Assembly: GCA_015179125.1 (NCBI GenBank)
Contig: WHVA01000026.1
Coordinates: 372,001 to 436,000 of the forward strand
Direction: 5' to 3'
DNA length: 64,000 nucleotides
DNA from: Gautieria morchelliformis
Taxonomy: Eukaryota > Basidiomycota > Agaricomycetes > Gomphales > Gomphaceae
The notes under the pieces were generated by a model. It was not told where the DNA came from and ran no database searches. It was given only the letters and a program-made list of their open reading frames with translations. This document shows, piece by piece, positions 17,386 to 45,030 of the stretch. The position numbers were made by a program, and so were the translations under genes. Position 1 is the first letter of the stretch. Each line of letters begins with the position of its first letter.

Positions 17386-17999
17386 TCCGCCTATGTAGTA
17401 AAGGCCTCTCTAGTGGAGAATGATGTAATAATTATGGGCGGGAAGCACTGGTGAGTCCCAGTATGCCCTTTGTATGTCCATGCATGCGGCCTGTGTCCCA
17501 GGCGGTGCTGTGATGAGCTGGACAAGTGGAGATGTGTGAGTTACTATCGTCAATGCGTGGACATGAAGTGAGAAGTGAGGAATGATAGAAGAGGATGGTC
17601 ATGGTATGGTCCTGTTCAGGATCATTGTGAGTGTGCATGTGGGGCTGCTTGTTCAAGTTGGCTGGACCATTCAGTTCCTGTGTGATTCTTGGCGGTAGGT
17701 GACGGTTGTGGCGGTGTCTAAGGCTCCCTCACAGGTTTTCACTGTCTGCGCTCATCGGTGATGAGCGCGAAATATGACTTGATGTGTTTCAGCCATAAGC
17801 ATGCTGCGAGCCTGAAATAGTTGACTTGCCTGCAAATCCTCCTGATAGCGCTCCTGAAATGTGACCAATAAATAATTTATGTCCGACGAAGGCTAGTACT
17901 GTACAAGACTTACGGGTCCAACATAGGACTACCATGGATGTTCCCACCGTCATGTTTCCTATGGCTCCCACGTTTTAGCACACATATGAAGTAAGAAAG

Positions 18000-18232
18000 C
18001 ATGTAGGAAGAATAAGCACTATATTTCAGTTCTGCTTGCACTACAGCTAAATTACAGTACCAACTTGTACTGAAATTTATTCCCCCAAAAATAATTTCAC
18101 AGGACTAAAAATCAGTACTATACAAGTACTGAAATTTAGTTACATAACAAAATGCAAAGTCAAACAGTACCAATGACAAATTAACTTTTTTTTACCTAAT
18201 CATGATCAATCTCCAGGTCCATGAACACCTTC
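18000..18232 (+). repeat. R1 terminus, copy b
   Basis: Matches 6281-6524 in the same orientation and 44795-45030 inverted. It contains the palindrome around CAGTACTATACAAGTACTG and ends in TACCTAATCATGATCAATC. Confidence 0.8.
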
Positions 18233-19289
18233 TGTCGATGTCCCATGGTCTGTGGGTGTTTCGTCTCAATGTAGCACCTCACTCATAAATTTGCGCAAAA
18301 GTAAGAATTCATTTGATACTCCGCCACCTTCCCACACCTCTTGCGTCTACCACCCTACCACCACCACCACACCGACAGCACAACACTGTGAAGCTAAGTG
18401 GTAACAGGTATAGCAGGCACTGGAGTTCCCACCATGGGAGAGCTAGCATAGCACAAGGTGATTCTTCTTGAGTGTCTCCAGAGGTTCATGGTTTTTTTAC
18501 AGGTCATTTGTCTTCCTCATCTTCCGTCAGCTTTGGTTCAGTTCTCCAGACTAAGGAATTCCACTGATTGTTCCAAATTCTTACAATCTCTTGGCTGTAC
18601 TTTGTCTGCTGTTTGGATGTTGTATCGGTGTTGAGACTTGGGGTCGATTCTCAGCTTTGGCTACATGATGATGAGTGACCAAGTCTAGTTGAATGCTACA
18701 TGAGCATACCTAATTTCGCTTTGTAGTCCTCATCGGCTCTCATGAACATCACCTTCATGGAGACTTGAATACTGCTGAAAGTCTCATCATCGCCTGTCAG
18801 ATCACCCTCACCATATAACTGCAATATAGCTTTGCCCTGTGTCACAAGTAAGAAATTCTTCATTGTGATCCACTGAGCTAGCTGTTGTTCAATAACCAGC
18901 TGTGATTCTTTGCCCTTATCTCCCACCTCAGCACCAGCATAGCAGGAGCCCTGCAAATGATGCTGGCTGACAGTCCTGCCATGTGATAAAGAGGGATACA
19001 GTGCCACCAGTAAGCACAACTTGCATTGGTATGAGCGTCTTCAACTGTTTATTCATGGAGGGGTTGATATATGCGCTCGTGCAGACGATGCTGTCCAATG
19101 CGCCACTCACTATATCCGGGGCATCACTAGAATTGACACAGCTTGTGCAGATTGAGCCTATATCTCTGCGGCCAAATGTCCTCCATGTGGTGTCGTTGGC
19201 AATATAGGTATGTGCTCATATCACCATTACAATATTTTATATCATGAGCCACAAGTGTGCTGATGTAACGTCCAGTCTATATGGGTTTT

Positions 19290-19640
19290 GTGCCTCTGTA
19301 ATACCTTATCACGTACCAGAACTATTCAACGTCAAGACCCGCAGCACACTAGATGAAAAGGTTGACATTTGGGTGCACATAGAGGTGTTACACTGTTCCT
19401 TCTGTCAATCTGATCATGTTTGCTCCCACTTTATTCCTTAGGATGTATGCTCTACACCCTAGCTTACTCTCATTCCGCGAGACCACCCAGACTATGGAGC
19501 AGGGTGGCTCTCTTGCCATGTCTGTTCTCAAAAGCGCATACAAACATCCAGCGAATGGTGGGTCTTACTCAGAGGGCTTAAGAGGTCTGATTGATTTCAT
19601 GCTCAAGGTTGAGCGGCCAGATATACCGACTCTGTGGCTA
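19290..19640 (+). pseudogene. STK16/Env7-like protein kinase relic (C-terminal lobe)
   Basis: The plus strand encodes VIPYHVPELFNVKTRSTLDE and KVDIW (the activation-segment APE and helix F region), then a GT...AG gap at about 19372-19440, then GCMLYTLAYSHS and, in a shifted frame, ETTQTMEQGGSLAMSVLKSA, YKHPANGGSYSEGLRGLIDF and MLKVERPDI. These match the NAK/STK16 (yeast Env7-like) kinase family: PYRAPELF...LDEKVDIWSLGC...TEQGGSIAMAV...YKHP...LI..ML...ERPDI. A short deletion between the two exon parts breaks the frame, and the N-lobe and catalytic loop are missing. It lies entirely inside the 3.4-kb transposon, so capture is the simplest explanation. Confidence 0.7.
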
Positions 19641-20239
19641 TTTGCATCTTCTCTTGACCGTGGCCGATACTGGCATGGATGCAGCGCATATTGCATATGC
19701 ACCGGGGGATGTCCTGGAGGAGGAACTCCTGTGAAGGCAATGGTGGGAGGCGAAACAGGATGTCGTGGGGTAGAGGGCGATGAGACAGGGCTGCCCTTGA
19801 TGATTGTGAGGGGTGCTGTAGATGTGAATGATGCCATATTAGGTGGTGAAGGGGGGAAACTGGGGTTGGGAGTAGAAGGCGGAACAGAGCCTTGGTGGCT
19901 TCAAGGCGAGGCAACTCGCAGGTGCATGTCATCAGCGGGAGACCAGGGTCGTGAGCTGGGGGATTTATCACTAGCATGGCTCTCATTCAGAATGCTCACA
20001 TCATGATCAATGTCTGCCAAAGAGGTAACGATGCTAAGGTGGGTGGGGTATGCAGCTCCTGGGTCCGCCTCAACATTAGGACTCCCAGCACTCACTTTCA
20101 AATTTTACCCGTATGGAGGTTGCTAGCACTGGTGACTTTGACATCAAGCGGTGATTGACGTGGTCAGGTGATCTAGATGAAAGTGAATGTCGTGCAGGTA
20201 ATACGGGTGTACCTGTATGTTGTTCTTGACCCTCATCTG

Positions 20240-20801
20240 TGTTACGATACGATCCGTCGTGAGGTTGACCGAGGTCGGGAGCGAAGCCCGAGGTAAGGTC
20301 CGAGGTCATGGGGTGAGGTTTGGATGGGGAAGTCGGAGAGGGACTTGGATTCAGCTTATGTGCTGCGCCGACCCTATGCACGAGTCCCAACTTCGGAGGC
20401 AAACGAATAAGAGGCGAGGTTTGGCTTAAGAGGCGAGGCTTAGAAACTAGCTAAGGATCAAAGGGATATGATAGTTGATTTTCAGACTGAGGAGTAGGAA
20501 TGCATACAAGAGGGGTTATATACGGGCGAGGGTACGAGTCAGGGACGAACATATTAGTGGAGGTCAGGGCGAGGTCAGGAGGCCGAGGTCAGGGCGAGGT
20601 AATATACGAATGATGCGTGATGGAGCGGAATCAGTAACTAAGGGGATACGGTCATGGGATCAAGGTCAGATATGAGCTCAAGCTCGGGCTCGGGCTCGGG
20701 CGCGGATAAGGATCATATGTACTCGGGCACGAATATCACAAGGCTCGGGCTCGGAAGAAGGTTTTACCAGTAAGTAACCGGCCAAAGGCCGGGTCCTTAC
20801 A
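20240..20801 (-). mobile_element. Solo LTR, probably Ty3/Gypsy, with 5-bp target duplication
   Basis: Read on the minus strand the element starts TGTAAGGACCCGGCC and ends CGTATCGTAACA, giving TG...CA ends and a length of 562 bp. ATCTG lies directly on both sides (20235-20239 and 20802-20806). It is a whole-looking single LTR left by recombination. It interrupts an acidic minus-strand reading frame (…KYSEDSDEIDDEAD…) inside the 3.4-kb transposon, so it is younger than that element. The preserved duplication suggests a fairly recent event. The Gypsy assignment rests on the TGTAAGGACCC start only. Confidence 0.8.
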
Positions 20802-21118
20802 ATCTGCCTCATCGTCAATTTCGTCACTGTCCTCTGAATACTTGGCGTCGTCACTCTTGTGGAAAGCCCTTGTCAAGGGCGATGTCAAACTCATCATGCC
20901 GAATGCGCTGGGTGTAGTGGTCATTGAGGCCTCTGCCATATCCTGCACGGGAAACAGACTCCCTGACTTTGTTCAGGCTGGCGTTTCTGACTGAGTTTTA
21001 ATCGTTGATGTCGCTTCTTCGCCATGTCAAGTGAATTTTCCTTGTGGCCACATACTTCTCTATTTCCCTCCTGTTTCCGACCAGTACCGGTTCACATATG
21101 CTCGCTAGGCAATGATGT

Positions 21119-21368
21119 GTGTACCTAAAAATTAGTACTGAATGTACTTTTTATTAGTGCTAAACAAGCTAGAATTAAGTTCTTTTTGAGCTAAAAAAAA
21201 CAGTACAAAGTGGGACATTTCACTACTAGAAATCAGTTCATGGTCAAAGGGGCTAGGAATGCTTCGGGAGCTAAAAATCAGTGCTCAAGTACTGATTTTT
21301 AGCTGGTTTTGTACTGAAACTCACGTTCCGTTTCATCTGATTTTTAGGTGCCCGCGCGTTCTGCAGTG
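21119..21368 (+). repeat. R2 transposon terminus, copy b
   Basis: An inverted match to 41612-41858. It starts TGTACCTAAAAATTAGTACT and ends TTTTTAGGTGC then CTGCAGTG. It contains the perfect foldback GCTAAAAATCAGT...ACTGATTTTTAGC at 21270-21303. A reading frame ending ...ARQ-stop abuts it at about 21105, exactly as in the 41.86-kb copy. Confidence 0.85.
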
Positions 21369-21472
21369 AAAGAAAGATGATAAAAAATGAACGCCAGCCT
21401 TGCATGGGATTCGAACCGAAGAGGTCGATGTGCCAGAAGCGCATAGTCATTTCACACAGTCCGGTGACTTGG

Positions 21473-21570
21473 GTCATTCCACGAATAGTTATCCTAATGC
21501 ACGACTGCGTTGAGTCCGATACCCTGAGAACGGCATTATAGAGTCTAAAACGTGTCAAAAACGTTGATAC
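21473..21570 (-). repeat. R3 repeat, copy 1 (inverted partner at 22743-22840)
   Basis: About 98 bp inverted relative to 22743-22840. Shared text includes CAACGTTTTTGACACGTT and CGGACTCAACGCAGTCGTG. The two copies enclose 1.17 kb without a recognisable gene. Confidence 0.75.
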
Positions 21571-22742
21571 CTGATGGCATCCAAGGCACACCTGTTCAGC
21601 AAATGCGTCTGAGAAGCACGAACCAACACCTCACGGATCACAGGAAAAGAAGCCTGGGGTAAGCGGTTGGATTTCAAATACAACGGCTGTGCTCTCGCTC
21701 TCGACAATCCAAATAGATACGATAGAATCGGAGAGGAGGAAGGAAGTGACGCACTTGATCCACTCCTATTCGGTAGAATCACACCCATCTTTCCATTCCA
21801 TCGATTGCGCGATCCCTGGTGTCATTATGCAAACTCAGTATTTTATGTAAGTCACTTTTCTGTCCCCAGCTTGAAGGCGTCAGGCCTTCAGGGAGCAGTC
21901 AAATGTTGACCACTGTTGTGCCCGATCGCTCCACGTACACATTCCATGGCCCGTAATGATTGTAAAAATGTTTCCGAGTAGCTAGCAGCATCTCCGCTCA
22001 CGTCCGTGGTGGGGGGGGGGCAGAGGATCGAGGGAATGTGGGTGTAGTTGAATTGCACGGCAGAGCTCACCGATAATCACTGGACGAGAGCCTGGAGAAA
22101 GGCAATTGGCTGATAAACTATTGGGTTCCGAGAAGGTCCCTGGTCACGCTCGGGCTCACTGGCGGAAACATTTCGAAATAGGTGCGTTGGAATGCAACAG
22201 ACACGTGCTAATTACAACCTTCACAGGTCGAAGCTGTCCTCAGCAGTGCCATCCTTCCAGGTCCATAGATAGAGGCACTGCCAGGAAACATTTTTAAACC
22301 CCGATGGCACTTTGGCACTCATGTACACCGGAATATTTTCTCGTGCTTCTGTGATTGCTCAAACCATGGTTAGATATTCTTGGCTAGAAGCTAGCGTTTA
22401 CACCTCGTGGTTAGAGTGTCAGGCACGCCTGATTATTGTGACTCGACTGGATCGATCCGAACTTGGTCAACGTTTGACTGCTCCCTGACTCGGAGGCCTT
22501 GAGCACCGGGACGTGACTTAAATCGAGAATAAAGAGTTCAAAATGAACTGAGCCATACCACGATCTATTGCATAGGAAGATGGGTGATTCCCCAGGATAC
22601 TGGATCAAGTGCGTCACTGCCCGTCCTTTTCCCTGATTCTATCGTATTCAAATTTGTATCATTGAGATCGTGAGCACACTCATTATATTTGAAATGCTTA
22701 ACCCATGCTTCTTGTCGTGTGATCTGCGAGGCGTTGATGCAT

Positions 22743-22840
22743 GTTTCAACGTTTTTGACACGTTGTAAACTCTATAACGCCGTTCTCAGCGTATCGGACT
22801 CAACGCAGTCGTGGATTAGCATGACTATTTGTGGAATGCT
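22743..22840 (+). repeat. R3 repeat, copy 2
   Basis: Inverted partner of 21473-21570. It ends shortly before the TATA-like box of the C2H2 gene, so the repeat forms part of that gene's upstream region. Confidence 0.75.
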
Positions 22841-22847
22841 CCAAGTA

Positions 22848-22858
22848 GATATATAAAG
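22848..22858 (+). promoter_or_regulatory. TATA-like box of the C2H2 gene
   Basis: The string GATATATAAAGGG lies about 45-50 bp upstream of the ATG at 22901, a plausible TATA position for a short 5' leader. Confidence 0.45.
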
Positions 22859-22900
22859 GGCTTGCGTTCGTTTTCTTACCGCAACATACTCTGATCCCAG

Positions 22901-25187
22901 ATGGCGTCCCACAACAAGTACACCCACTACTCTACTAGTACGACGTCCCCGGTAACTGCCTCCGCGCCATCTTTTCCCTCGCAGCAATCCCCTGTCCCGA
23001 TCGAGTACAACAGTCCCCAGGATGATTTGTATGAGCCACAACCATCAGTGGCAGGTCCGAGTGAATATGCTTGGACTAACCGGCCCTTTACACAGGAAAA
23101 AAGAGTTAGCATTCTTCTCAAGCTTGAGATGTACGCCACTAACAATGATTCAGGGTGATGTAGGCGTGTCAGAAAACTGGAGTGACGAGGTTTCGGCCGC
23201 ATACGCCACCCCATATTATGCGGCTGTAGATCACGTCCAGCAGGACGCACCTGTCGTCGACCCACAAGCATGCCTGTTCGAGTATCCCCTAGAGCAGCTT
23301 GTTGGAGATGTGTCAGCTGGCACCTCGGTCACCCCAGGTTGGACTGACAACGCCGATCAACATTCTGAGTATGTTTCGCCACGTTCTATCAGAATGAAGA
23401 CAAAAAAGCTCACTGGCTGACACACAGAGATGCGCCGCTCCTGACGGCAGATGACTTTGTTCCGCAGTTTCCACCATGTGTTGCCGTTGGACCAGTCGCC
23501 GATGCAGACTTTCAACCAGGGACGGAACATGTGCCATATTACTCGGCTGGTCAGATAGATTATAGGTAGGTACAAGCATTCTACAGCACGCTAGAACAGT
23601 ACTCACCTTTTTCTCAAGCGGCCAACAGGGATGGCGGCATTGCGCACCCCCGATAGACAACGTCGCGCATGTTTACGGCGAGCGGACACTCCAGAACAGC
23701 GCAGCAGTTAGTGGTTCTGGCTCAGAGTACTTTCAGTTCCGTTCCGTCCGGCAGGACATACCCTACACCGGTTGTGACCACGTAGGTGACGAAGAGCCTG
23801 TGGCAAACATTATGCCGTACCGCGCGGCTCATCACACTGGGTCGACAAGCTCACCTGTCGGTTATCGTGTGGAGGAGTATGCTTTCGGGTAAGCATGTGG
23901 CCGTTATACGTGACAATAGAAAATTAATCATTTTGTCCGAAGCCGGGAGCCGGAAGGACTTTATCACCCATGGCCCATTAACAGTTATCCATCTCAACCT
24001 CCGAATGGCATACCACTCTCTGGCACCCACTCTGAGTATCCGCAACTTGTGAGGCAAGAATTCCCCCCCAGTGGACAGACAGATGGGACATTCGCTGAGG
24101 ATTCAAGGCAATACTTCGGGTAGGCGCAAACCTTTTTGTGCAATAGCGCATATCTGACGTGTTTATAAGGGCTCAAGACACAGGACCTAGTTTTCCACCC
24201 CAAGCTGCGTATGCCGACAATGCTTCTGAGCTTGGCGCGGAAGAGCTTGGGCCGATCTCATGCCACGCAGCTCCCAGTCAGACAGACCGGGCTTTCAGCT
24301 CATATTCAGCCTTGAGGGAATATCCCGGGTAGGCAAATATTTTTAATGGGTGTAATAGCACATATCTGATCTAGTTCTCAAGCGGTCAAGACATTAGAGG
24401 CCTTTACCTACAGCAGGAAAATGTGCCATACAGTGACAATGGTGCGCCACCATATCCGGGAATGTCATTCTCCTATGATAGCGGAGGGACAAACCATACG
24501 GATGGTGGGCAGAACATGTGCGTGGCTTCGTGTGTGTTCGACAGACAGAGACAGGACACTGACGCATGCCACAGGCCCACCATCCCAAACAAACACTTCG
24601 ATTACAACCAGGGGGTGGCGTGGACCACCACGGCCACCCCACCGGCAGCAAATGCTGCCAGTTTGGAGATGGTGGGATCCCTGGCAATGCAGTCAGATCC
24701 CGTACCTTCCTCTCCAAGCCCGCACCCCGGGCCATCAAATAACGTCCACGGCGATGGGCAGCATACGGAGACGGCACAGCACTCATACCGGTGCCCTTTG
24801 GACAGTGGATGCGGCAAGACATGCGGCGCAGATGTATCCGTAAACGGCAAACGGCACTTCCAGTCCCACCTCATGCGTGAGCTCAGGCGCATTAAGAATG
24901 GGTCGATGGACCTATCTGATGCCAAGATCATCAAATCCGAGGCTGACCTTCGCCGTGCGGAGGAGCTGGAGGTGCCGTGCCCCTACGGGTGCACAAGATA
25001 TGGTGTGCCGACGACGTACGCCCGGAAAACTCATCTCCGGAGACATCTGGAGGAGACGTGCTGGAAGCCGCTCGACGACAACGAGATAGATGCCGTGGCC
25101 ACAAAAGCCTTTTCATGCAGAGGCAAGACAGTCGCGGAGATCATGAGGGTTTTCAACGAGAGACAGTCGGCCCATGTGAAACTGTAA
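22901..25187 (+). CDS. C2H2-type zinc-finger protein with duplicated exons (7 exons)
   Basis: A probable DNA-binding nuclear protein of 655 residues. The exons that give one continuous frame are 22901-23104, 23154-23368, 23428-23565, 23619-23888, 23943-24119, 24170-24328 and 24383-25187. The six introns are 49-59 bp with GT...AG ends; the first carries a CTAAC branch site. The N-terminal two thirds is low-complexity, rich in Ser, Pro, Tyr, Gly and Gln. Exons 4-7 each start after the same split Ser/Gly codon with related text (GQQG, GREPEG, GAQDTG, GQDIRG), as if copied from one ancestral exon. The C-terminus has two atypical zinc fingers: CPLDSGC...H...H and CPYGC...H...H...C. All frames are open, so the gene looks functional. 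Its target genes are unknown. Confidence 0.8.
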
Positions 25188-27740
25188 CTTGAAAATCATG
25201 TGCTCGTAGAAGGCACACATCCCATACTTACCAAGGTACTCATCGAAATTTGACAACCTGGCACAAATTGCCTCAATGGATCGTATGATGAGCGAAAAGG
25301 TGCCGCACTTGAGCGGATGCGTCACGTGACGCATACGCGTTCCCCTGAACGATTTTCCACATTTTGCGTGCTCGAAATCGGTTTGCCGTAGATGAGCGCT
25401 CGTATACAGAGCCCTTTGCAGCATCTCTGCCAATTCGGCTATCCGGGGTACCTCACTGCTGCTTACTCCGTCTTGCTCCGTGCAGCATATCCTTATTCCT
25501 ATATAAAACTAGTCATATTTGCCCTGAATGGACTCTCCCTATCTATCTTACTGTAAGCCCCGCGTTGCGGGAACATGTTCAATTCCTGTGCGACCTTAGT
25601 AACTGTGCGTACTTGACTTTCTACGGATGTCTACTTATACATTGACGATTCGACCCGAAAGGCACACTTAATTTCCGTACCTGAATACATGCGGAACGCA
25701 ATAGAGACTTGAGTACGATGGTAAATACCGCACAATTACCGAAGGGAGCACAACAGCGCAGACGTCAACTGACCCCTATAATTCGTCCATCCCTGCTAAA
25801 TGCGTATACCTGGTGGCTGTCCAAGCATTCCAATTTGCTTGGAAAAATTGTAGCAGAGAGACATCTACCAACAATTTCTTCCATTACCTTTGTCTCTTCG
25901 TCACAGCACGGGGATACTAAGCTGATGAAGACTATCTCCCACGGTAGAAACTCGTCGTGTATGACGCTTCTGCTTGATTTGCAAGTCGGCCCTGACAGTG
26001 AATTGGTTTTCATTATTATCAGCTCCCGATCACTGATCGCATTGCGGCACGCCCTGTCAATGATCACGGCCATGACAACTTGAAGCGGCGCGGTGCGTTG
26101 GTTACGCATGTCGCCGTCAAACGCTAATTTCTCAGACACCTACGTTTGCCACTGCTTCCCCAGCCTTTCACAGACCCTATCCCATCGGCCGTTCAAAGTT
26201 TGACTGAGTACCCGTAAGCAGTTGGGGGTCTCAATGGGACTGACCGCGCGATATCCATTCCAATCAGTCTGCGACTTTGCGTTGAACATGCGTTGTAGCA
26301 TTATTCCCCCATATTTCCCTTATACATCGACATGTATTGTTGCAAGGCTGTCGAAGAGTGCTGTTGGGTCAAAAGTCGCTTTCACACTTCCGAGTCTAAC
26401 AACAAACATACAACACCAGAGATAGACCCGACCGAATGGCATAGATGACAGACAAGCAGTTGCAAAGCAGAGATATCTGACGGAGAAATGGAAAAGAAGA
26501 GGAAAATATTCATAGTCAAGATTGGACGAAATAATAGATGGCCAGAGCACGTTAACTACCTTCGACACCTTCGCTCTTCTGGTGCGGTGTCCCAGCCCGT
26601 CCTGGAGTACCCTGACCGTTGTTAACCGGCGTGAGCTTGTAGCTGCGCCGTCAGCTGATTGTCTCCCGGGAGTGGCGCTTACCCGCTGCACGTAAAGGGA
26701 CTTCCCCCGCGTTTGCGGCTTGCGTTCTCTTTACATCGACGAGCCAGCTGTGCGCCCTGAAATTCACGCTCATATAGCGGGTCAGATGTATTCAGTCTAG
26801 GGAGTCTCGTTGTGTTGTCGCTGCCGGGAAAGAGCATCTACAGTCACGGTACTCGCTCGGCGGGTATTATATAACTGGATCACGCGTCATCGATCATCCT
26901 CCCTCTTACACTTGCACACAAAATTACGACGGGATATTCGCAAATCCATCGGCTTAACTTCACGGCTCAGAGGTGGCTTGTCTGGCCCCACTGTGCTGGA
27001 GTTGATCCGGTAGCGGGTGGGGTACTTCCACCAGGAGTATGGGCAGCATAAAGCATCCTCACCTGGCACATCTCTAACTCACTTTCGTCTATTTTTCCCA
27101 CCTCCAATGCTTTGCAACGTCACAATTTCGATAGCTCGAAATCTCGCCGCAGACCACTCCTTCCGGAGAAACTGCCAGCTTTGACAAATTATCGATGGCA
27201 AATGTAAGTACGTGGCAAAATACGCGGATAGGAATGAGATGCCGGCTGTTGGAAACATACAACCCTGTTGTAAATAACATGTACAACGTGTTGCAAAATA
27301 CACTGCCAGATGTTAAGGATATGCTCTGTATAAGCTGCAATTTGTTATGCCCGGTGTGAAACCCAAGTTGCGTTCCGCCGGTCGATGCCCGGTGTCAACG
27401 CCCGAGATAAGCTCGGCCCAGGCTGACGCTCAGACCCAGTGTCAGCCTGTCGTGCCGTGCCACGTCCAATCTCCGCCTGCGGCTTCGGCCGGAGACTATC
27501 ATAGGCTCAGCTTGGGGTGCGGTCGAAGCCCGATCTCCAAGCTGAAAGCTAGGTCTAGTGCAGCCCGGACCTCAGACCCAGTGCCTCTTGAACCGCGCGG
27601 TGCCACGCTCAGCGGGCGTGCAGTACGCTCGCATGGAAGACACGCGCCTGTGAGCCAAATCCGGTACGCACCTGGCATGCCGTCATCATAACCGCCACTG
27701 ATACTCACGCAGGGGGCGATTTTCCGGTCAAGCAGACAGC
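25188..27740. other. Intergenic stretch without a recognisable gene
   Basis: Frames of up to 124 codons overlap on both strands (for example 25709-26083 plus and 25765-26139 minus are mutual shadows). No family signal, splice-linked exon set or repeat is visible. The last few hundred bases may hold the start of the transposase gene that follows; a 114-codon Pro/Ser-rich plus frame at 27347-27691 could be an early exon or noise. Confidence 0.4.
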
Positions 27741-30700: not shown

Positions 30701-31495
30701 TCCCAGGTGTGGATGAACACCTGGTACGTGCATGGTGGCCCTTATTGATGCGCACTGAGATCATGTTCAGGAACAACTGGAACGGGCCATTCATTATTTC
30801 CTGGATTGCACGGAGAAGTGGACGCCCTGTTGGTTTAACAAGCCTAAGTTTCATATTTTGTTGCACTTGACTGACCACATATGGCAATTTGCCCCCCCCA
30901 TTCTGTTTGCCACAGAACAATTTGAATCATTCAATGCCGTCATACGGGCCAAGAGCATCCACTCGAACAGGCACGCGCCCTCGAGGGACATCGCGAACGC
31001 GTTTGCGCAAGGGAATCGCGTTCACCACCTCATGAGCAGGGGATACGTGCGGTGCACCCCCCTGGGTCTGGAGCGCACGGGACAGGGGGTGGGGGACAAA
31101 TCCATTCCAGCCATGCCGCGGGGACCGGCTGAGGATGGGTCGTGGAGACAAATCAGGGAGGCCCCGTTCACCATAGTTCCGCCGGGAAGCTTGGTAAGGA
31201 CGTACCTGGGGGCCGATGAGACCCCTCCAAAGGCTATCGGTGAGCTTCTCTGGCTCTGCCCATGACACAGGCGGCATTGCCACTGACAGCCGCGAGGGCA
31301 CGGCAATAGTGTTGGGAATGCAGAAGCTCAGTTACATGGACACGCACGGAGAGGGTTTTTCTCACGCTTACCACCACCACCAAAATACCCAAAATTGCAC
31401 TTCACACACACACGCTCGCTAAACCGCACACCAGTGCATCGCTGAATACAGCTAGCGGCGAAAATGAGCTTCCCTGAAAAGAAGCTGTCAAAACG

Positions 31496-36200: not shown

Positions 36201-37229
36201 AGGATCCCCCTCAACAAGGAACAAGCGAAGAGTGAGATGAGCGAGCAAGAGGCCGGGACCACGGTGTATACCGACGGGTCAAGCATAAACGGGGGAGTGG
36301 GGGCAGCGGCGGTGCTATTTAGGAACGGGAGAGAGAGGAAGACGGCGAGGCTACACCTGGGCCCAGAAAGCGAGCATACAGTGTTCGAAGCGGAGCTGGC
36401 AGCGGCGGTGATGGGAGCAAGGATGCTGAACAACGAGAGGGGTGGGAGCTACACAATAGCAATGGACAACCAGGCTGCCATCCAAGCTACTAGACAAGAA
36501 CGAGCCATACCAGGTCAATACATGGTAAATGCTCTACACAGGCAGATACAGGGAGTGGTGGAGAAACAAGCAGGAGCTGAAGTAATTGTGAGATGGGTGC
36601 CAGGGCACGAAGGGGTAGAAGGAAATGAGAGAGCCGACAAAGAGGCGAAAAGAGCAGCGGAAGGATGGAACAGTGGCATGCAGTACATACCGACCGAGTG
36701 TTGAGGGAAGCTACCAGTGAGCAGAGCGGCAGAGATCCAGAGGCACAACGTGAAGCTGAACCGGGAAGCGAAGGAAAAATTTGCTAAGTCCCCCAGAGCG
36801 CTTCATGCACATGAGATTGACCCCACTATGCCGTCAGCAGCATTCTCGAAGATCACAAGAAATATGCCGCGCAAACAAGCGAGCCTGCTGGTACAACTGA
36901 GAACGGGACATATCGCGCTGAACAAACACTTACACAAAATTGGGAAAACAGCGTCACCCCTCTGCCCAGCGTGCAGGAGCGCTCCAGAGACAGTACATCA
37001 TTTCCTATTCCGCTGCCCAGCATACAGAGAGCAGAGAGGGAGACTAGAGAGAAAACTCAAGAGAGGAGCCAAATCGGTCAAGACGTTATTGGGGGGGCAT
37101 AAGGCGATGGAACATTTGTTCAGGTACATACATGACACCAAGCGATTCGAGGAGCAATATGGAGATGTAACGACGTCGAAAGGAAAGGCAGGAGTGGACA
37201 AAAGAAAAGAGGACAGGCGCAGAGGATAG
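33262..37229 (+). pseudogene. LINE ORF2: endonuclease, reverse transcriptase, RNase H, CCHC tail
   Basis: Endonuclease: RIRQQNVNKSL, AIQEPYIDF, WLGDFNRRHLVWD, SDHLPIDT (33262-34220). RT: KAPGENGIPNELIKQ, YLDIKGAFPSIV, GRGMDQGCLLSAI (34464-35800). RNase H: VYTDGSS, FEAELAAA, AMDNQAA, PGHEGVEGNERAD, with all acidic residues present (36260-36650). A final zinc finger reads CPACRSAPETVHHFLFRC (about 36963-37017). Damage seen: a frame change with a TGA near 34225-34240, FVDN in place of the catalytic FVDD box (about 35379-35390), and TGA at 36702-36704 before GKLPVSRAAE. The Asp-to-Asn change alone should abolish polymerisation. Confidence 0.85.
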
Positions 37230-37396
37230 GAGGAGCGAATCACATACCCCGCCCACATAGGCACGGACACACTCGAGGCTACGCCCAATGAGTTCAAGCA
37301 GGGAAAGAGGTCGAAAGGTGGGAAGCAACGGTCACAAGCAGGAATCTGTATACTTCGTCTTACATAGGGTGCGGCCCCAAAAGACGTAAAATTGGA

Positions 37397-37426
37397 TGAA
37401 AAAAAAGAAAAAAAAAAAAAAAAAAA
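37397..37426 (+). repeat. 3' poly(A) tract of LINE copy 2
   Basis: An almost pure A run (one G interruption) directly before the second target-duplication copy, as expected from target-primed reverse transcription. Confidence 0.9.
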
Positions 37427-38257
37427 ATGGATACGCACACCGGGAGGATCTTCCCCGATACTACCACAGACGCTGCCCACCCTCCTCTGCGGTACAAGCC
37501 CTGCAAACGCCTCATCCTCAACAACAGAGATGCCTGTGCACCCGATGCCTGGGTGATCTATCACCCACACCTCAGTTCACCTCATGTACCCGATGTAACT
37601 CATTATCACCCACACCTCAGTTCGCCTCATGTACCCCATGGCACCCAGGTTGGACGTATCCTGGAGATTCTGCGCGTCTCCGGGTCCGAGGACGACCGCC
37701 GCCGCATCCCAAGCGCGGTCCTCATCGAATCCTGGAGAGTCGGGGCACCAACTCCCCCTTACAACATGCCCGCAATCCTCCCCGGGGTGGAAACCACACA
37801 TAGGGTGGTGATAGTTGAGGTGCGTGCCATGGCGGCCTCATGCTTCTGTGACGTCCGACGCGAGCCCAGGCCCTGCTCTGCACGGTTAACGTGCAGCACA
37901 ATTGTGCAGGACACAATTGGGAGCCCTCTGGCATGAGACAGGTGACGCAGGAATGGGAATGAACAGGACACACGGTACCAGCACTCGTGCATAGGGGGGA
38001 CTTGCGGGACTTCGTGCTCAATGTGTGCCAAATGCGAGATGCCTGCCGGCTTGCACCATTTCGGGCCTCATGGGCCGCCCTCAACCGTGAGGAGATTATC
38101 CACGCAGGTGCAGCCATGGAGGTGGCAGCCCGCATAGCACCGAGGAAACCTGTCCATCGTGCGGCGAATGGGCCTCCTCGGGGGAGGCTGGGGGGGGGCT
38201 AAGTCTCTCCTTCGCTGATCACTATTTATATTGAGAGTAGACAACTGTACACCATTC

Positions 38258-38845
38258 TTATTCATTCACTGCGAGTAATTCCATCGCGGTCCCCAACTCA
38301 TTTGAGACCCCTGACAACTCCATAACCCAGCGCCTGTCGCGCATGCTATGCTCGCGCGCCAAGTGTACAGCCACCCGGTGCTGTCTCTGCAAGAGTTCCC
38401 ACATCTCGTCAGGTGCGCCGCCATCCTGAACAGGGCCAAGTGAGGCCCTCTTCCTGAGCCATTCCAGGTACTTGTCAACTTCGTCAGTGGAAGCCGTCAC
38501 ACTGGCCATGGGATGATCAATGGCGCGGGCAGTTTCCTGCCTACCGAGGCCTCGGGCTCTGGGTAGATCTCCCATCTCCATCGGCATGTCCGTGACAATC
38601 TGGACACGGGGGAGTGATTGTGGAGAGGGACAACCTTCGACGGGACCCGCTGAAGGCTCCCGCTGGGACCAACCCGTGGGCATAGCTGCCACGGGACAAT
38701 GAGCACGGGACAATGAGGTGAGTCTGCTATCATTGTTCAGATGTAGCCCCACACTCACTTTCATTGTCCATCGATGATTCCTCACTCCCATCCAGCTCCA
38801 CCTCACCCACCCCCGTCCCACTTCCTGCAGCCGCACCCACAACAA
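38258..38845 (-). CDS. Uncharacterised 195-residue protein, antisense and downstream of the transposase
   Basis: A single open frame from ATG 38845 to stop 38258, convergent with the transposase end at 38202. The C-terminal half (DEVDKYLEWLRKR, EMWELLQRQHRVAVHLAREH) is strongly helical and could form a coiled coil. The N-terminal half is less ordered and Gly/Arg-rich, so the true start may be further in or on another exon. I do not recognise the family. Its closeness to the transposase suggests it belongs to the same mobile element. Confidence 0.4.
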   Translation of the reverse strand: MLWVRLQEVGRGWVRWSWMGVRNHRWTMKVSVGLHLNNDSRLTSLSRAHCPVAAMPTGWSQREPSAGPVEGCPSPQSLPRVQIVTDMPMEMGDLPRARGLGRQETARAIDHPMASVTASTDEVDKYLEWLRKRASLGPVQDGGAPDEMWELLQRQHRVAVHLAREHSMRDRRWVMELSGVSNELGTAMELLAVNE

Positions 38846-39889
38846 GACCCTCTAACCCAAGGTCAGTTGGCTACATGACGCCATGTGTCACCACCCCGAC
38901 GCACCCAGAGCTGGCTCTGGCTTGACCCTCATCCTGACGGCCCTTGCACCCACACGCCCTCGCTTCTTTGGACTTGGTACCCGACCCGTGCCGCCCACAG
39001 ATTGCTCGAACCACTGAGTCTCTGATGTTTCTTCATTCAGAGGGCCGCCAGTCTCATGCCATGCAGACCTGACAAGGACACACACATGGCATCAGGTAAG
39101 TCCCTGAGGATTCTTGCGCATGGGTTAATGAACACTCACGCCTCGTGAAAATGCTGACGGTCCTTTCTTTTCAGGTGATCTGCACCCCCGCTGGCGTGTA
39201 TCTTGGGTTTCGAGTGCATGCTCAGCGAACGCGATAGAGCTGTTCGTGATGACTCAATACCACGAGCGGGCACTTGTGCCCGCTGGCCGACTCCCCGAGG
39301 CCCATTACCGCACCACGTAAGCCCACCCCTTCTTGACCCTTACTCCCACCTCCTCACTCCCACACCCATGGCGTCTTGAGGCTACACGCTCCCGAGCGTA
39401 TTGTCTCGCACGGCCCCCAGCCCCAACCCTGACCTGACACATAATTCTTTCACCCACACCCTGTTTTCCAGTCCGAGCCCAGCCCAATCCCTCCACCAAC
39501 CCCACCGACCCTCTGTGCCCGCCCTCAGCATCAGCCCTCGAGACTTCGCTACCCCCACCCCCCCACTGGATGACCTATCCCGCTTTGACAGCACGGGATC
39601 TCAGCACATGCCCCCTCAGCTCCAGCATGAACCCTCTGGCCTGACCATCTCACCCCCTAGCCCCACTCCTCCTCTCAGTATGGCGGCCACAACCTCGCCA
39701 ACCACGATACTGAGTTGCTCGACTCTGACCCATCCCAAGCCGCCCACGCTCATGTCTCGACCTCCACGATTGATGCTTTAAAGCACCCACTTTGTGCACA
39801 CTGCTACACAATGCAATGACTTCCATGTGTTCTTTCGCATGTGTGCATTTCTCTCCCATTTTTGAAAGAACTCACCATCCCACTCACTG
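38846..39889. other. Low-information stretch between two ORFs
   Basis: C/T-rich on the plus strand. A 126-codon Pro/Ser/Thr-rich plus frame (39401-39781) could be a disordered exon of the gene that follows, but no splice pair confirms this. Confidence 0.35.
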
Positions 39890-41576
39890 CAGATGGGAGC
39901 TGGATTGGGCCGGGCATACCTAGTGGCCCTGTTCTTTCGCATCGAGACATCCCTTGCGCGCTGTGATGTTGACATCACGGCACTTACCGATGAATTTCAG
40001 GCCCGCCTTGAAGTGACCTTTGCCCTCAACAAGGAACAGGCGGTGCGTGTATAGCTGTACGTCCCAGCCCGCCGCTCTCACCGGCCCCTACCTCAGGCCA
40101 ACATACGCCTGGTTGCCCAAGACCTGATATATTCAAGCCACCGAACATCATATCTCACACTGTTTTTGGATGTTGATGTGCGTTGGACCGCCGTCTTTGA
40201 ACATCACCTAAGATAGGGGACACCAGGAACCAACCACCTTTACGTAAGCGAGCACGCCAGTAGCAGCCGCCTTCCGACATCCTCAATTCCACCGACATAT
40301 ATTAAGGTCTGACTTATTTGAGTCCTAAGGGTTTCTCTCAATATGTCTAGTTTGAATTTGTAGGAAAGGGTTTAGCTAAATAATGCAGGGTAGCTGAGTT
40401 ATATACTCTTGAAGTGCAGACTAAGAATTTTTTTCCAAATACTTTATTTTGTGTTTTGGAACCGTTTGGGACACATTTTGTATTTTCCAACCACAACATT
40501 TGGCGCGTCACGTGACATTATTTGTCAGCTTTCTCAGCGCTTGGACGTTGGCGCTCAGTGACGGATGACCATTCTGGGAGGTCACGTGCCACGTGACACA
40601 GCAAATTGGTCAAACATGGGCAGAGTCCCTTGCCCAGTAACATATTAGCAAGTCAATCAAAAGTATAGTAATTAGATACAAAATTTACACTTCTGTATAT
40701 CAAAATTGAATTATCTGGCACACTTTTGGAAAATTTGAAATCCAAGTCTTTCGATTTGGCGCATCACATGATCTAAGCGCTCGCTTACGTCAGGGTGGTT
40801 GGTTCCTGGTGTCCCCTATCTTATGCTCACCGAACCCTGTTTCCAGGCCCTTGTCCGCAAGGATTGGAAACGCCTCGGCATTATTAATGTTTACGGGAAC
40901 CCATCGCGCGAGAAAATAGTTAGCTCCAGCATCAAGCAAATCTGCTCAAGTGTACGAAATGCCTGGCGTGCCGATGTGGGTGCTCTCAGAGCCTGCAATA
41001 CTCAGAACTGACACTGCACGGCCAGATCCGGGACAGTTGCCTCGGGAGCAAGACCGTGTGTCTTGCCCAGTTCACCTTCGAAAGTGCTAGCAAATACAAG
41101 ACGGGTGGTCCTGGAAAAGACCTCAGTGCAATGTACAGTGTCCACAATGCACTACTAGTGAGTGCCAGGTTTGTGATCCTCGTGCACACTCACATGCCTC
41201 CCTGCCAGCGTCGCTTCACATATGAAAACCCCGCGCTCGTTGACCGGGTGGAAGGGGAACCCGACGACGACGATGCCCCAAATCCGAGGGACAAAGAGAC
41301 CCGAAAACGCAAGAAAACCGCAGTTGCACGTGTCAATAAGGGTGAGGACTACTGGTCCTGCGTGGATAGTTGGTTCATGGGGCTGATCACCGCATGGGGC
41401 GCTGATATAGGGTCAGGCGATTGGAAACAGTGTGTGAGATCACTCTTGGTGCTCACAACTCACTCATAGGCCCTGGGTGCATACTAGATACATTGATGAA
41501 ATGTGTCAGCGCGATGCTGACATGTTCCCGCAAGTCAACACCAACTATGCAATTAGCTATGCAGTGCCCAGTTGAG
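39890..41576 (+). pseudogene. Uncharacterised transposon-linked gene split by a MITE
   Basis: Plus-strand pieces read in order: GLGRAYLVALFFRIETSLAR, ANIRLVAQDLIYSSHRTSYL, VDVRWTAVFEHHL, [MITE 40211-40821], LTEPCFQALVRKDWKRLGII, SIKQICSSVRNAWRADVGAL, CLAQFTFESASKYKTGGPGK, RRFTYENPALVDRVEGE, NKGEDYWSCVDSWFMGLITA, and WVHTRYIDEMCQRDADMF ending at TGA near 41574. Short GT...AG introns explain most joins. The order and style resemble long uncharacterised proteins I associate with Agaricomycete transposons, but I cannot give a function. The MITE in the coding part makes it non-functional unless the MITE is spliced out. Confidence 0.5.
40211..40821. mobile_element. 611-bp MITE with about 40-bp inverted ends and TA duplication
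   Basis: Left end AGATAGGGGACACCAGGAAC and right end its inverted copy (GTTCCTGGTGTCCCCTATCT). Similarity continues through ACGTAAGCGAGC for about 44 bp. The dinucleotide TA flanks both sides (40209-40210, 40822-40823). No ORF lies inside. TIR plus TA duplication fits a Tc1/mariner-type MITE. The interior carries short inverted stretches and GCGTCACGTGAC. Confidence 0.88.
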
Positions 41577-41611
41577 CCGTGCGGCACCGCTGCAAGCGAC
41601 CACAAATACGG

Positions 41612-41858
41612 CACTGCAGAAAGCGCCGGCACCTAAAAATCGGATGAAACGGAACTTGATTTCAGTACAAAACCAGCTAAAAATCAGTACTTGAGCACTG
41701 ATTTTTAGCTCCCAAAGCATTCCCAGCCCCTTCGACCATGAACTGATTTCTAGTAGTGAAAATGTCCCACTTTGTACTGTTTTTTAGCTCAAAAAGAACT
41801 TAATTCTAGCTTGTTTAGCACTAATAAAAAGTACATTCAGAACTAATTTTTAGGTACA
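41612..41858 (-). repeat. R2 terminus, copy c
   Basis: Inverted match to 21119-21368, with the foldback around AGCTAAAAATCAGTACTTGA and the inner start TGTACCTAAAAATTAGT on the minus strand. Confidence 0.85.
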
Positions 41859-41862
41859 TATA

Positions 41863-42147
41863 TTATTGCCTAGCGAGCGGATAGGAACTGGTACTGGACA
41901 GAAACAGGACAGAAATACTGAGATATGCAGCCACCATGAAACTGAAGTATGAGCTGGCGTAGCGCCTGACAGGACTGGTAACAACTGAACCCACAGGAAG
42001 TCCGGCGTCCATTCGAGGGAATATGTGGGGAACCCCTGCGAGTATGACGAGTGGCACTGAGATGGCATTAAGTGCGAACGAAGGTGGGTCTCCAGTTGAG
42101 GTAGTCATGGACAAATTTGTGGCCTCTGGACGAGGGGAAGACAGCAA
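41863..42147 (-). CDS. Short hydrophobic ORF ending at the R2 terminus
   Basis: 94 codons ending ...VLFLSSTSSYPLARQ-stop, ten bases before R2. A single hydrophobic segment (YFSFMVAAYLSISVLFLS) near the C-terminus could span a membrane. In copy b a related sequence (…DQYRFTYARQ-stop) ends at the same distance from R2, so at least this 3' end belongs to the transposon rather than to a captured gene. It could be the last exon of a longer protein. Function unknown. Confidence 0.35.
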   Translation of the reverse strand: MLSSPRPEATNLSMTTSTGDPPSFALNAISVPLVILAGVPHIFPRMDAGLPVGSVVTSPVRRYASSYFSFMVAAYLSISVLFLSSTSSYPLARQ

Positions 42148-42359
42148 GGGCAGACAAGAGAGGCAGTGTCAAACTCAACACTGAGCAGGAGAGGAATCAT
42201 GGGTGGATGCACTGCGCAGGTTGCTGTAGGCCATTTCCTTGATATACAACGACGCAGGTGAGTGACGGTGCAAATAGATAGGAGCTGCGTACGTCAATTT
42301 CGCCTGAGAGTAGAACATCGTATAGGAAGGGACATCCACACACACGACACTACAAGCCA

Positions 42360-43270
42360 AGCGCTCCGTCTCGAGCGAGGTCCGCTGCAAGTCCGCGTCG
42401 CCGTCCGACGGCGCGCGCTGGGGCTCCCCCTCCGCACCCGCGCCGTTCGTGCGCATCATGCGCTCGTGAGTATTCGTCATGGGGTCGTGTGGTGTTGCTG
42501 TGGGCCCTGTCATGTCATCAGGTGTCCGCATGGCTGCGTCTTGAGTCCTCGACGCCTGTGCCGCCGCTGTCCCCCTCCTCACCATCTCTCTGTCACTCAT
42601 TCCCATCCCCCTCGTCTCCCTTTCCCTCGGCCCCTTGTTACTCATCTCCTGGGCCTGCTTCATGGCGTTTTTTGTCGGTGCTGTGGGCTCGCGAGTCGTC
42701 ATGGGGGTCATGGCGATAAGGGTGTGCTTTGCAGGGTCATCTAGGGGTGCTGTGTGGATGGCACTCTGGCTCTCCGGCTCCGTGATCTCGCGTGTCCCTG
42801 TTGCGTCCTCGTTGGTCTTTCTGGCTGGCCGCTTCTGTCCCTTGTCTGTCCCTATCCCTCTGCCTGGTCCCTGTCTCCTTTGTCCCCATCATCTGGTGGG
42901 TCTGTGCTGCGACGTCATTCGTCTGTGCCGCTGTCCTGCGAATCAGCGTGTTCTTGGGTGTTCCCTGCCCTGCGTTGCGTCTCTGTGACGCGTCCTCGCG
43001 TGTCCCCGTCGCTGCGTCATTCGTGCGCGTCATGCGCTCGCGAGTATTCATCGTGGGGTTGTGTGGGGATGCCGTGTGGGACTGGGTCATGCTCTGGACC
43101 GTCTGTGTGGCTTCGTCCTGTGTCCTTGCCACCTCCGCCGTCTCCCCTCTCTGCCTCATCATGCTCTCCCTTGTCCCGTTCATTCTTCCCTCGTGCTCCC
43201 TTGTTCCCATCTCATTCCTGTCGTCCCTCGTCACCATGATCTTGCGGGCCCACGTCGCAGCGTCGTTCGT
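42360..43270 (-). repeat. Degenerate internal repeats in a coding-like, GC-rich region
   Basis: Minus-strand reading gives repeated Thr/Arg/Met-rich blocks (HNPTMNTRERMTRTNDAATG against HDPMTNTHERMMRTNGAG). At DNA level CGTGCGCATCATGCGCTCG at about 42449 recurs as CGTGCGCGTCATGCGCTCG at about 43022, and GTCATTCGTCTGTGCCGCTG at about 42915 recurs at about 43262. This looks like minisatellite expansion, not a conserved domain. Confidence 0.5.
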
Positions 43271-43335
43271 CTGTGCCGCTGTCACGTAGGCGTAGGCGTC
43301 GCTGGGGCCTCCTGCGTCGGCACGGCGCCCGCGGT

Positions 43336-43971
43336 TCATTGCGACGTGTTGCTCCCCATGAGAGTGAAGCCGCTTTGCGGGCAGCCGTCCTTCCAGAAGC
43401 CACTGCCCGTCCGCACGCTCGCGAGCGCGCCCACGCGGGGCCGGACGGCTCGACCCACCCGGAGCTCTGGAGGTACTTGCGCATGGGGACGCTGAGGAGC
43501 GCAGCGCCCTGGGTGCCCCAGTCGGCGACGAGGAGGGCGTGCAGCGCCGCGTGGGTGGACATGGAGATGAGGAAGGCACGCGGGGAGGCGGCGGGGGCGA
43601 TGGTGTGGGCGTAGGGCTTCCTGCGCGGCGGTCAGAACAAAGTACACAGTGATGCACATGCACAGGCACAGGCGCAGGGGCACGCAGTGGCTTACGAGAA
43701 GAACACGACGTCGGCGTCTTGGATGAGCTGGGCAGCGGCACGGTCCGCGGGGTCAGTGTCCGTGATGACAGGGGATGGGGGAGACGACACACCTGCTCGA
43801 CGCCCGCGCGGGTGACTCCGAGACTGAACACACAGCGACAACAACAACAACAACAAAAATCCGGATGAAAGCTGAGTAAGCTATCACTGGGGTGAATATA
43901 TGACATACCACTCATTGGCCATGGCCCGTACGTCTACAGGAAGCATCCATAGGGCGGGTCACAGCCAGTCG
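43336..43971 (-). pseudogene. PfkB-family carbohydrate kinase, C-terminal part
   Basis: Minus-strand exons 43971-43909, 43823-43793, 43727-43696 and 43620-43336, joined by introns of 85, 65 and 75 bp, read VDVRAMANEC, LGVTRAGVEQ, LIQDADVVFFS, KPYAHTIAPAASPRAFLISM, HALLVADWGTQGAALLSVPM, RKYLQSSGWVEPSGP, then after a one-base frame change LASVRTGSGFWKDGCPQSGF. This fits the second half of ribokinase/ketohexokinase-like PfkB proteins, which phosphorylate sugars. The N-terminal sugar-binding half is missing and a stop lies just upstream of the first exon. The fragment lies inside the 3.4-kb transposon. Confidence 0.65.
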
Positions 43972-44191
43972 CTGCGAAGATTATAAGTACGATATCATGT
44001 CCATCAGTGAAAGAAGAGAAAAACATAAGAGGTCACAGTTTGTACGCGATGGTTTGGTAGCGACCGCAGAGGGGCGCCCACTGCGAACACACGACGTGGA
44101 AGGTGCATAGAATCATAAGGATCAAACCGTGGGTTCTGACGAATCCGATAGAGTCAACGCTCGCGCGCTCCCGGAGAGGTGTCCTACTCAC

Positions 44192-44343
44192 TGATGCTCT
44201 GATAAGTCAGTGTCAAAATAGACCGCCTCAGCGGTGACAAGGTCGAGCTGCTCGTCGAAGACAACAGCGCACAGCTGCTCGGTTGCCAACTCGAGACCAA
44301 GAAAATGGGTGGGTTTACCAGCTGGGGGCGTCTTGGAAAGCAT
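44192..44343 (-). pseudogene. First exon of a D-xylulose kinase, isolated
   Basis: From ATG 44343 the minus strand reads MLSKTPPAGKPTHFLGLELA, TEQLCAVVFDEQLDLVTAEA and VYFDTDLSEH, then a GTGAGT donor. This matches the N-terminus of fungal xylulokinases (LGxDLSTQQLK..V.DE.L.VV..E.V.FD.DLP.Y), the start of the FGGY kinase fold. No following exon (TRGGV..., ATP- and sugar-binding parts) is found in the next kilobase, so the gene is a one-exon fragment captured with its splice donor. The copy lies inside the 3.4-kb transposon, next to the PfkB piece. Confidence 0.65.
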
Positions 44344-44794
44344 GTTTGAGCTAAGAGAATGTGTAGAGTATGAGAAAGAGAAAAGAAAGTGATGAAAAAA
44401 GAAAGTGATGGGTGTCGGGTGGAGAATGCAAAGGCCGGTCAGCACCCCAACACCCCGAGTAATCAAACAGGGGACAAAGATGTACCCACCCAAATCTTCC
44501 AGGATTGACCTCCCTCATCCACATCACTCCTGAGGCGTCTCGCTAAAGTTGTCAAGGACATCTGTCAGAGCCAGAGAATAGTTTAGCTTCGATGGGGGAT
44601 TCCGCGTGTCTCAGCACCGGTGTGTTGATCCGCCCAAGGCAGCAGATGTATGCGCTTGCAATGGGGTCGAGGAAGGAAGGCTATTAAAGCAGAGAATCAA
44701 AAGAATTCGGGAAAGAAAGCAGTGACCTGTACATGGTGGACAAGCAGCTGTCTGCAGTCGACAGAAGCGGCGATTTTGAAGACGGTGTTTGTGG

Positions 44795-45030
44795 ACCCGG
44801 AGATTGATCATGATTAGGTAGAAAAAATAATTCATTGGTCATTGGTCATTGGTACTGTACTGTTTGACTTTGCATTTTGTCCTGTACTTAAATTTCAGTA
44901 CTTGTATAGTACTGATTTTTAGTGCTCTGTGAAACTATTTTTTGGGGACTAAATTTCAGTACAAGTCGGTACTGTAATTTAGCTGTAGTGCAAGCGGAAC
45001 TGAAATATAGCGCTTATTCATCCTACAGTG
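44795..45030 (-). repeat. R1 terminus, copy c
   Basis: Inverted match to 6281-6524 and 18000-18232, including GATTGATCATGATTAGGTA at the inner side and CATCCTACAGTG at the outer end. A short plus frame ending VFVDPEIDHD-stop is kept in similar form next to all three R1 copies and may be the C-terminus of a transposon gene. Confidence 0.8.

Follow-up and report, generated by a model that had tools for sequence, protein, structure and literature searches.

This locus raises the question of how two transposon-like elements with the same ends came to hold different pieces of host genes. The window, by which we mean the whole stretch of 64,000 bp analysed here, is C293:372001–436000 of the Gautieria morchelliformis genome (C labels denote contigs and L labels fetched loci), and the genome searched comprised 122 Mb in 1113 contigs. 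Element A occupies positions 18000–21368 of the window on the plus strand and element B positions 41612–45030 on the minus strand. Both are very probably Pack-CACTA elements, that is, non-autonomous CACTA/EnSpm-type elements which carry pieces of host genes copied in by break repair and which were moved in trans.

Shared ends and target sites of A and B

The two elements share two terminal regions, R1 and R2, in mirror order, as the original prediction had held. R1 of A (18000–18240, plus strand) and R1 of B (44771–45030, minus strand, at the high-coordinate end) align between 18002–18233 and 44780–45027 with 85% identity over 248 columns, and R2 of A (21040–21368, plus strand; aligned from 21037) and R2 of B (41612–41941, minus strand) are 90% identical over 333 columns. 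The tips of the family read CACTGTAGRAAG and CACTGCAGAAAG. The R1 tip of B is the family tip CACTGTAGG, the left tip of A, CATGTAGG, is one base short of it, and the R2 regions end in CTGCAGTG in A and in the outer tip CACTGCAG in B. Subterminal CAGTAC repeats are present five times in each end of A and six and four times in the ends of B, and are absent from both interiors (that of A taken as 400–2900 in its own numbering). The two elements had been described as two copies of 3.4 kb; the lengths are indeed similar, but their near equality is coincidental because A holds a nested repeat of 562 bp and B about 0.84 kb of degenerate repeats.

Searches of the genome yielded at least 41 rows of matches for R1 and at least 72 for R2, with the best 40 candidates scored in each case, of 132 and 93. 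With at most two mismatches allowed, the R1 tip (19 bases) matched 183 times, against 26 for the control; with at most three, the R2 tip (21 bases) matched 90 times, against once for the reversed control. The pairing count that the original prediction called for used 100 of the 183 R1 tips plus 10 R1 starts from the R1 genome matches. A correctly oriented R1 was found within 13 kb of at least 41 of the 90 R2 tips (two of these 41 share one R1), and a wrongly oriented one, among the R1 tips listed, beside none of the 90. Both R1 and R2 matches are present in 19 of the 20 fetched loci, L057 having R1 only; 18 of these loci were picked for an already visible pair, and the unbiased pairing figure is 41 of 90. 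It is thus confirmed that A and B belong to one DNA-transposon family and that the pairing of R1 and R2 is real genome-wide.

Insertion sites were scored in A, B and other family members, L044 and L057 excepted. An exact 4-bp match of the flanks was found in 19 of 23 rows. A, L039 and L040 occupy one site, and counted by distinct sites the figure is 17 of 20. The remaining cases are L050, with 3 bp, and B, L042 and L043, with no duplication, the right flank of L042 being that of the A site. The duplication at A is AAAG; a flank of 8 bp with seven matches had been reported there, which proved to be these four bases together with additional similarity within an A-rich target. The B-type copies L051–L056 lie at separate sites, each with its own 4-bp duplication, and the B-type copies that were fetched differ from one another in their flanks. 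Multiplication by transposition at independent sites, a criterion for Pack-TYPE elements, is therefore observed.

The flanks of A itself are repeated: L039 matches both 17500–18000 and 21369–21870 at 98% over 500 bp, the left flank is also matched by L040 and L057, and the first 95 bp of the right flank by L040, L042 and L044. The insertion site of A was multiplied by a larger unit. These shared flanks speak for a reading in which R1 and R2 merely belong to a larger repeat, the kinase pieces being what is left of genes that once stood at the site, with no capture at all. Against this stand 16 further distinct sites with 4-bp duplications of their own, the unlike flanks of the B-type copies and the matching genes on other contigs; for the whole family these findings refute it and leave it highly improbable. 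Adjoining A, a pair of 107-bp inverted arms (21467–21573 and 22740–22846), 89% complementary, lie 1166 bp apart.

A third R1 end was found in the window at 6281–6547 on the plus strand by alignment, and traces of it continue to about 7272. As R2 was matched nowhere in the window but in A and B, this R1 has no R2 of its own there, and it is perhaps the remnant of another family member, such as a truncated element.

Transposase and family assignment

The original prediction recognised a Pack-type pattern of non-autonomous ends around host-gene pieces and left the family unnamed. We assign it to the CACTA/EnSpm type because three R1–R2 elements contain a TNP2 match and have the same tips and 4-bp duplication. 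Genome-wide, 3 of 79 PF02992 matches lie inside R1–R2 pairs, against 0.106 expected under an even spread, and all three are antisense to the R1–R2 direction. The elements that bear them, C537:300980–312370 (11.4 kb), C184:24971–32094 (7.1 kb) and C781:415974–422926 (7.0 kb), have the family tips and the duplications TGGC, AATG and CACT, respectively, and an open reading frame (ORF) of the first (L085) matches Transposase_21 (TNP2) at 8.3e-22. Among the 41 listed pairs, PF02992 occurs in three of the five longer than 6.9 kb and in none of the shorter ones; the other two long pairs are a B-type copy in C674 and a pair in C239 that reuses an R1. Two unpaired R2 tips also have an inward PF02992 match (C783, 5.6 kb, and C561, 4.5 kb). 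The R2 end of the C781 element aligns to 21 elements at 89.5–97% over 200–296 bp and its R1 end to 14 elements at 91–97% over 130–144 bp. Compared with B and L050–L054, this R1 end is 77–78% identical over 317 columns, and its alignment to L044 and L045 is patchier.

The family has CAC..GTG tips with short inverted repeats, TNP2 in its full-size members and subterminal repeats in both ends, the last of these being a feature of CACTA/EnSpm elements. Chapaev elements duplicate 4 bp of target, and a CMC relative other than EnSpm, either Chapaev-like or a new branch, is an alternative that we consider unlikely. It is favoured by the duplication of exactly 4 bp at 17 of the 20 sites, with 3 bp at one and none at two; the 3 bp of the fungal EnSpm families described in PMC12730594, within a wider CMCT clade with 2–5 bp, is not the rule in the present family. 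Against such a branch stand the Transposase_21 match at 8.3e-22, the CAC..GTG tips and the subterminal repeats, as well as the fact that CACTA duplications vary, being 5 nt in rice and maize (PMC8903248). Since the duplication is of 4 rather than 3 bp, the family is filed as CACTA/EnSpm-type and not as a member of the EnSpm families of PMC12730594.

Several other candidates were rejected, AcademH having been suggested by the literature only. The large ORFs of L057 are not a family transposase, as a Ty3/Gypsy-type element sits inside that member, and L056 is not an autonomous CACTA element, its extra length (C674) being a Tc1/mariner-type (DDE_3) insert. The target duplication of MULE elements is about 9 bp and that expected of hAT elements 8 bp (or 5–7 bp), as opposed to the 4 bp observed. 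Among the matches listed, none of 47 Kyakuja, Dileera and Zisupton (KDZ) places lies inside a pair, and the duplication is not the 7–8 bp of that group. For Plavaka, none of 87 places lies inside a pair (best 123 of 277 candidates scored), and tips and duplication differ; one Plavaka family of the G. morchelliformis genome ends in TGATG (one side read). Plavaka elements have tips TGT..ACA or CATCA..TGATG and duplications of 2–3 bp, and the tips and duplications of both KDZ and Plavaka are unlike those of the present family (PMC12730594).

Host-gene pieces in the interiors

The largest captured piece of A lies at 18397–18971 on the minus strand (398–972 in the numbering of A) and matches a DUF3591 gene at C486, which we take to be TAF1, with 88.6% identity across 575 bp. 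The piece keeps one intron of 49 bases, recognised by eye where the reading frame of the host gene shifts. C486 has the only long set of DUF3591 matches in the genome, C589 having one short match to another part of the profile, while pieces limited to approximately profile positions 316–444 occur at 10 places including A. R1 or R2 matches lie beside nine of these ten, the exception being C352:6176, and L042 is among the loci that carry the TAF1 piece. The second piece of A, at 19300–19612 on the plus strand (A 1301–1613), derives from a protein-kinase gene, is 89% identical to C227 and likewise keeps an intron by eye. Its PF00069 match (5.5e-6) reaches 26.4 bits, below the cut-off of 31.7, and its STK16/Env7 type is read by eye only. 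The original prediction had named this kinase piece for the interior of A and missed the TAF1 piece. A match at C615 spans the end of the kinase piece; the part read there contains no parent gene and no full element. The repeat of 562 bp at 20240–20801 (TGTTACG..TTACA), to which 34 of 42 rows in one match listing are due, has a 5-bp duplication ATCTG and is absent from L040. It is a later insertion rather than captured gene DNA and looks like a solo long terminal repeat.

All pieces of B are on the minus strand. The first (44127–44394; B 637–904) comprises the 5' part of a xylulokinase gene, with upstream sequence, first exon and the start of an intron by eye, and is 96% identical to C1026 over 268 bp; the ORF neighbouring the C1026 match finds xylulose kinase 4bc2 at 1.3e-26 in a PDB sequence search. 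A 33-bp unit at the start of this piece is tandemly repeated, to differing lengths, in the B-type copies L053, L054 and L056 (C759, C892 and C674). Next come two halves of a GH16 glucanase piece, 43839–44025 (B 1006–1192) and 41961–42322 (B 2709–3070), which are 80% and 74% identical to a gene at C212, the first GH16 ORF of which matches beta-1,3(4)-glucanase 7wwc at 3.5e-7. Between the halves lies a PfkB-like piece whose first part (43285–43837; B 1194–1746) is 88% identical to C555 and whose second part (42361–42441; B 2590–2670) is 97.5% identical to it over 81 bp. These parts are separated by an expansion with degenerate direct repeats of approximately 0.84 kb (42442–43284), where the C555 locus has about 24 bp. 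For B, the predicted first exon of a xylulokinase was borne out, whereas the PfkB label was assigned from motifs by eye and was not confirmed either by Pfam on the six frames of B or by PDB searches with 43501–43862 in three frames, which gave one angiogenin match (E 0.33). B's PfkB-like stretch is also carried by a dispersed repeat in L075, L077 and L078 (C394, C204 and C133) of at least 1.2 kb (L075 against L078), which is possibly a second gene-carrying repeat family.

The host loci that match the captured pieces (C486, C227, C1026, C555 and C212) all lie on other contigs, in keeping with the prediction that the pieces came from elsewhere. The introns kept in the TAF1 and kinase pieces, as read by eye, indicate that the source was DNA, which had also been foreseen. 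Helitrons take up gene pieces in Pleurotus (PMC4289320), so a Helitron, or reverse transcription, might be proposed as the agent of capture; the retained introns, the inverted tips and the 4-bp duplications refute both for A and B, and the probability that we leave to them is negligible.

In the remaining interiors, a Pfam search with ten ORFs of L041–L043, L048, L056 and L057 found only retroelement domains, in L057, and a weak BBP1_C match. Weak six-frame matches to HemY_N in L048, to PKS_DH_N in L041 and to a WD40-type domain, CbiZ and Transposase_28 in L042 were discounted, as were weak BAG6 and zf_UBZ matches in the 0.5-kb filler of L045. One further repeat is nested in both L041 (element positions 541–3620) and L047 (2727–4000), in opposite orientations, and alignment overlaps suggest a 5-bp duplication for each. 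Elsewhere in the window, 45-bp arms at 40209–40253 and 40779–40823, 96% complementary and with 525 bp between them, may be a small inverted-repeat element.

Order and route of capture

The GH16 piece is unbroken in L049 (C212 512–1152, corresponding to L049 1359–1977), which has no PfkB-like piece, and it is also unbroken across the PfkB insertion point (C212 512–732) in L047 and L048. Since the gene at C212 is unbroken there as well, the PfkB-free state is ancestral. At the left junction of the PfkB-like insert three bases, CCG, are common to both templates by eye, and no clear duplication was found at the insert. In L048 a lysophospholipase piece (PLA2_B 1.9e-12) lies within the GH16 piece about 28 bp beyond the PfkB point. 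Seven other places in the genome match it over as much as 1258 bp, at 82–85%, and the same piece is carried by L047 (C448) and by C222. The coexistence of empty and filled GH16 forms indicates that an element already in place took up pieces in succession. L049 also holds a 3' piece from the xylulokinase locus, joined to the 5' piece with a 3-bp overlap by eye, and for this reason the first xylulokinase capture probably spanned most of the gene. A later re-copying of B's xylulokinase piece, considered because L049 is less similar to the host locus there, at 83.8%, was dropped, as that figure counts gap columns.

The captured pieces differ in their decay. C>T or G>A changes are found at 32 of 76 CpG positions against 13 of 222 other C/G positions in the TAF1 piece and at 13 of 37 against 3 of 118 in the kinase piece. 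The corresponding counts are 3 of 40 and 1 of 102 for xylulokinase in B, 5 of 56 and 2 of 162 for the 3' piece in L049, and 14 of 97 and 22 of 257 for GH16 in L049. The pattern in the TAF1 and kinase pieces would fit methylation, or a process like repeat-induced point mutation, acting at CpG. Total differences amount to 10.8% for TAF1 and 9.3% for the kinase, as compared with 4.1% for xylulokinase in B and 5.8% for the 3' piece in L049, and on these figures the pieces of A look older than the xylulokinase pieces; the GH16 piece in L049 differs by 15.1%.

The debated routes of capture are tandem hybrids, end-skipping and template-switching repair. In the tandem-array route, described for Arabidopsis Pack-CACTA elements (PMC13317346, PMC8903248), neighbouring elements lose their facing ends and move as a hybrid together with the DNA between them. 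This route, which we regard as improbable for the present family, has to contend with single elements that hold pieces matching two or three contigs, and it does not produce the internal PfkB-like filling of the GH16 piece, although the first capture could still fit it. Break repair with template switching is favoured because sequence matching other contigs was copied to an internal position of an element and the insert is not clearly flanked by a duplication, and such repair has been argued for animal Pack-TIRs (PMC8277862).

Under the break-repair reading, a TNP2-type transposase encoded by larger members such as those at C781, C184 and C537 would move elements of the A and B types in trans, cutting and pasting them and duplicating 4 bp of target at each insertion. 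The features that it recognises are most likely the CACTG tips and the CAGTAC repeats next to them. After a break inside an element, repair synthesis most likely switches to an unlinked gene and copies a stretch of it, introns included. This uptake of host DNA would have been repeated in the same element lineage, and the captured pieces would later have been reshaped by internal deletions, repeat expansion, nested retrotransposons and CpG decay.

A number of observations weigh against this account. Among the R1 tips listed (100 of 183), 49 of the 90 R2 tips have no R1 partner, and two of the five longest pairs (above 6.9 kb) lack a PF02992 match. The TNP2-bearing elements are known from a partial reading that covers part of one transposase, and the competence of these elements is putative. 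The tip of A is mutated and B has no target duplication; one site lies inside a larger repeat common to A, L039 and L040 (L042, L044 and L057 share one flank only), and transposition of their own therefore does not account for the spread of every A-type copy. The PfkB-like insert has an indistinct right junction, where a short duplication may have decayed. As for the sources, the Pfam search of the six frames of B found none of its pieces, the C1026 and C212 ORFs had no Pfam match either, and the second GH16 ORF at C212 reached no better than 0.18 in the PDB search. Identity to GH16 at C212 is no more than 74–81%, with 79 of the 93 differences to L049 not being CpG transitions, so that C212 is possibly a paralogue of the gene that was copied. 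About 450 bp of C555, extending past the piece found in B, recur in the dispersed repeat at C394, C204 and C133, and C555 may thus be a repeat copy rather than the parent gene. Finally, the match of C615 (L087, C615:221300–221900) to A 1515–1884, 90.5% over 370 bp, falls outside this account.

Plant Pack-CACTA elements are known from Arabidopsis, rice and maize, and the present family resembles them in its non-autonomous CACTA-type ends, in gene pieces that sometimes come from more than one locus and in having its transposase in larger relatives (PMC8903248). It differs in its fungal host, in tips that read CACTG where those of plants read CACTACAA, in a duplication of 4 bp where rice and maize have 5 nt, and in the persistence of empty and filled interior sites side by side (PMC8903248). 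With the CACTA/EnSpm families of Puccinia it shares CAC..GTG tips, a short target duplication and an EnSpm-type transposase; those families make 3-bp duplications and the available passages describe no carriers of gene pieces among them, whereas here there are 4 bp and gene pieces (PMC12730594). Gene capture in fungi is known from hAT elements of ascomycetes (PMC3538342, PMC6710886) and from Helitrons in Pleurotus (PMC4289320). As in the transduplication of histone H3 by hAT elements in Pyrenophora tritici-repentis and Mycosphaerellaceae, a DNA transposon amplifies captured host sequence, but that case concerns another superfamily and histone H3 only, while several genes with introns are involved here (PMC3538342, PMC6710886). 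Animal Pack-TIRs, for which gap-filling and FoSTeST models exist, likewise hold gene pieces in elements with terminal inverted repeats and show microhomology at junctions, with template switching proposed; 160 (56.9%) of their single-copy cases lie at most 15 kb from the parent, unlike the multicopy pieces here, which match other contigs (PMC8277862). A fungal Pack-CACTA was not found in a partial literature search covering few subscription papers, which is weak evidence of novelty.

The empty form (L049), the PfkB-filled form (the B group) and the lysophospholipase-filled form (L047 and L048) of one interior region may constitute a fossil series. The evidence leaves us evenly divided on the full proposal that they do so in a fungal Pack-CACTA family with 4-bp duplications, and that transposon interiors are preferred places for the repeated copying-in of unlinked genes by repair synthesis. 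An ordered series of this kind within one genome, with candidate sources, an ancestral empty site and two fillings, lets the sequence tell the routes of capture apart. As far as the partial literature search reaches, Pack-CACTA elements are extended from plants to fungi, and gene annotations in such genomes may include transposon-borne pieces of TAF1, kinases and sugar enzymes.

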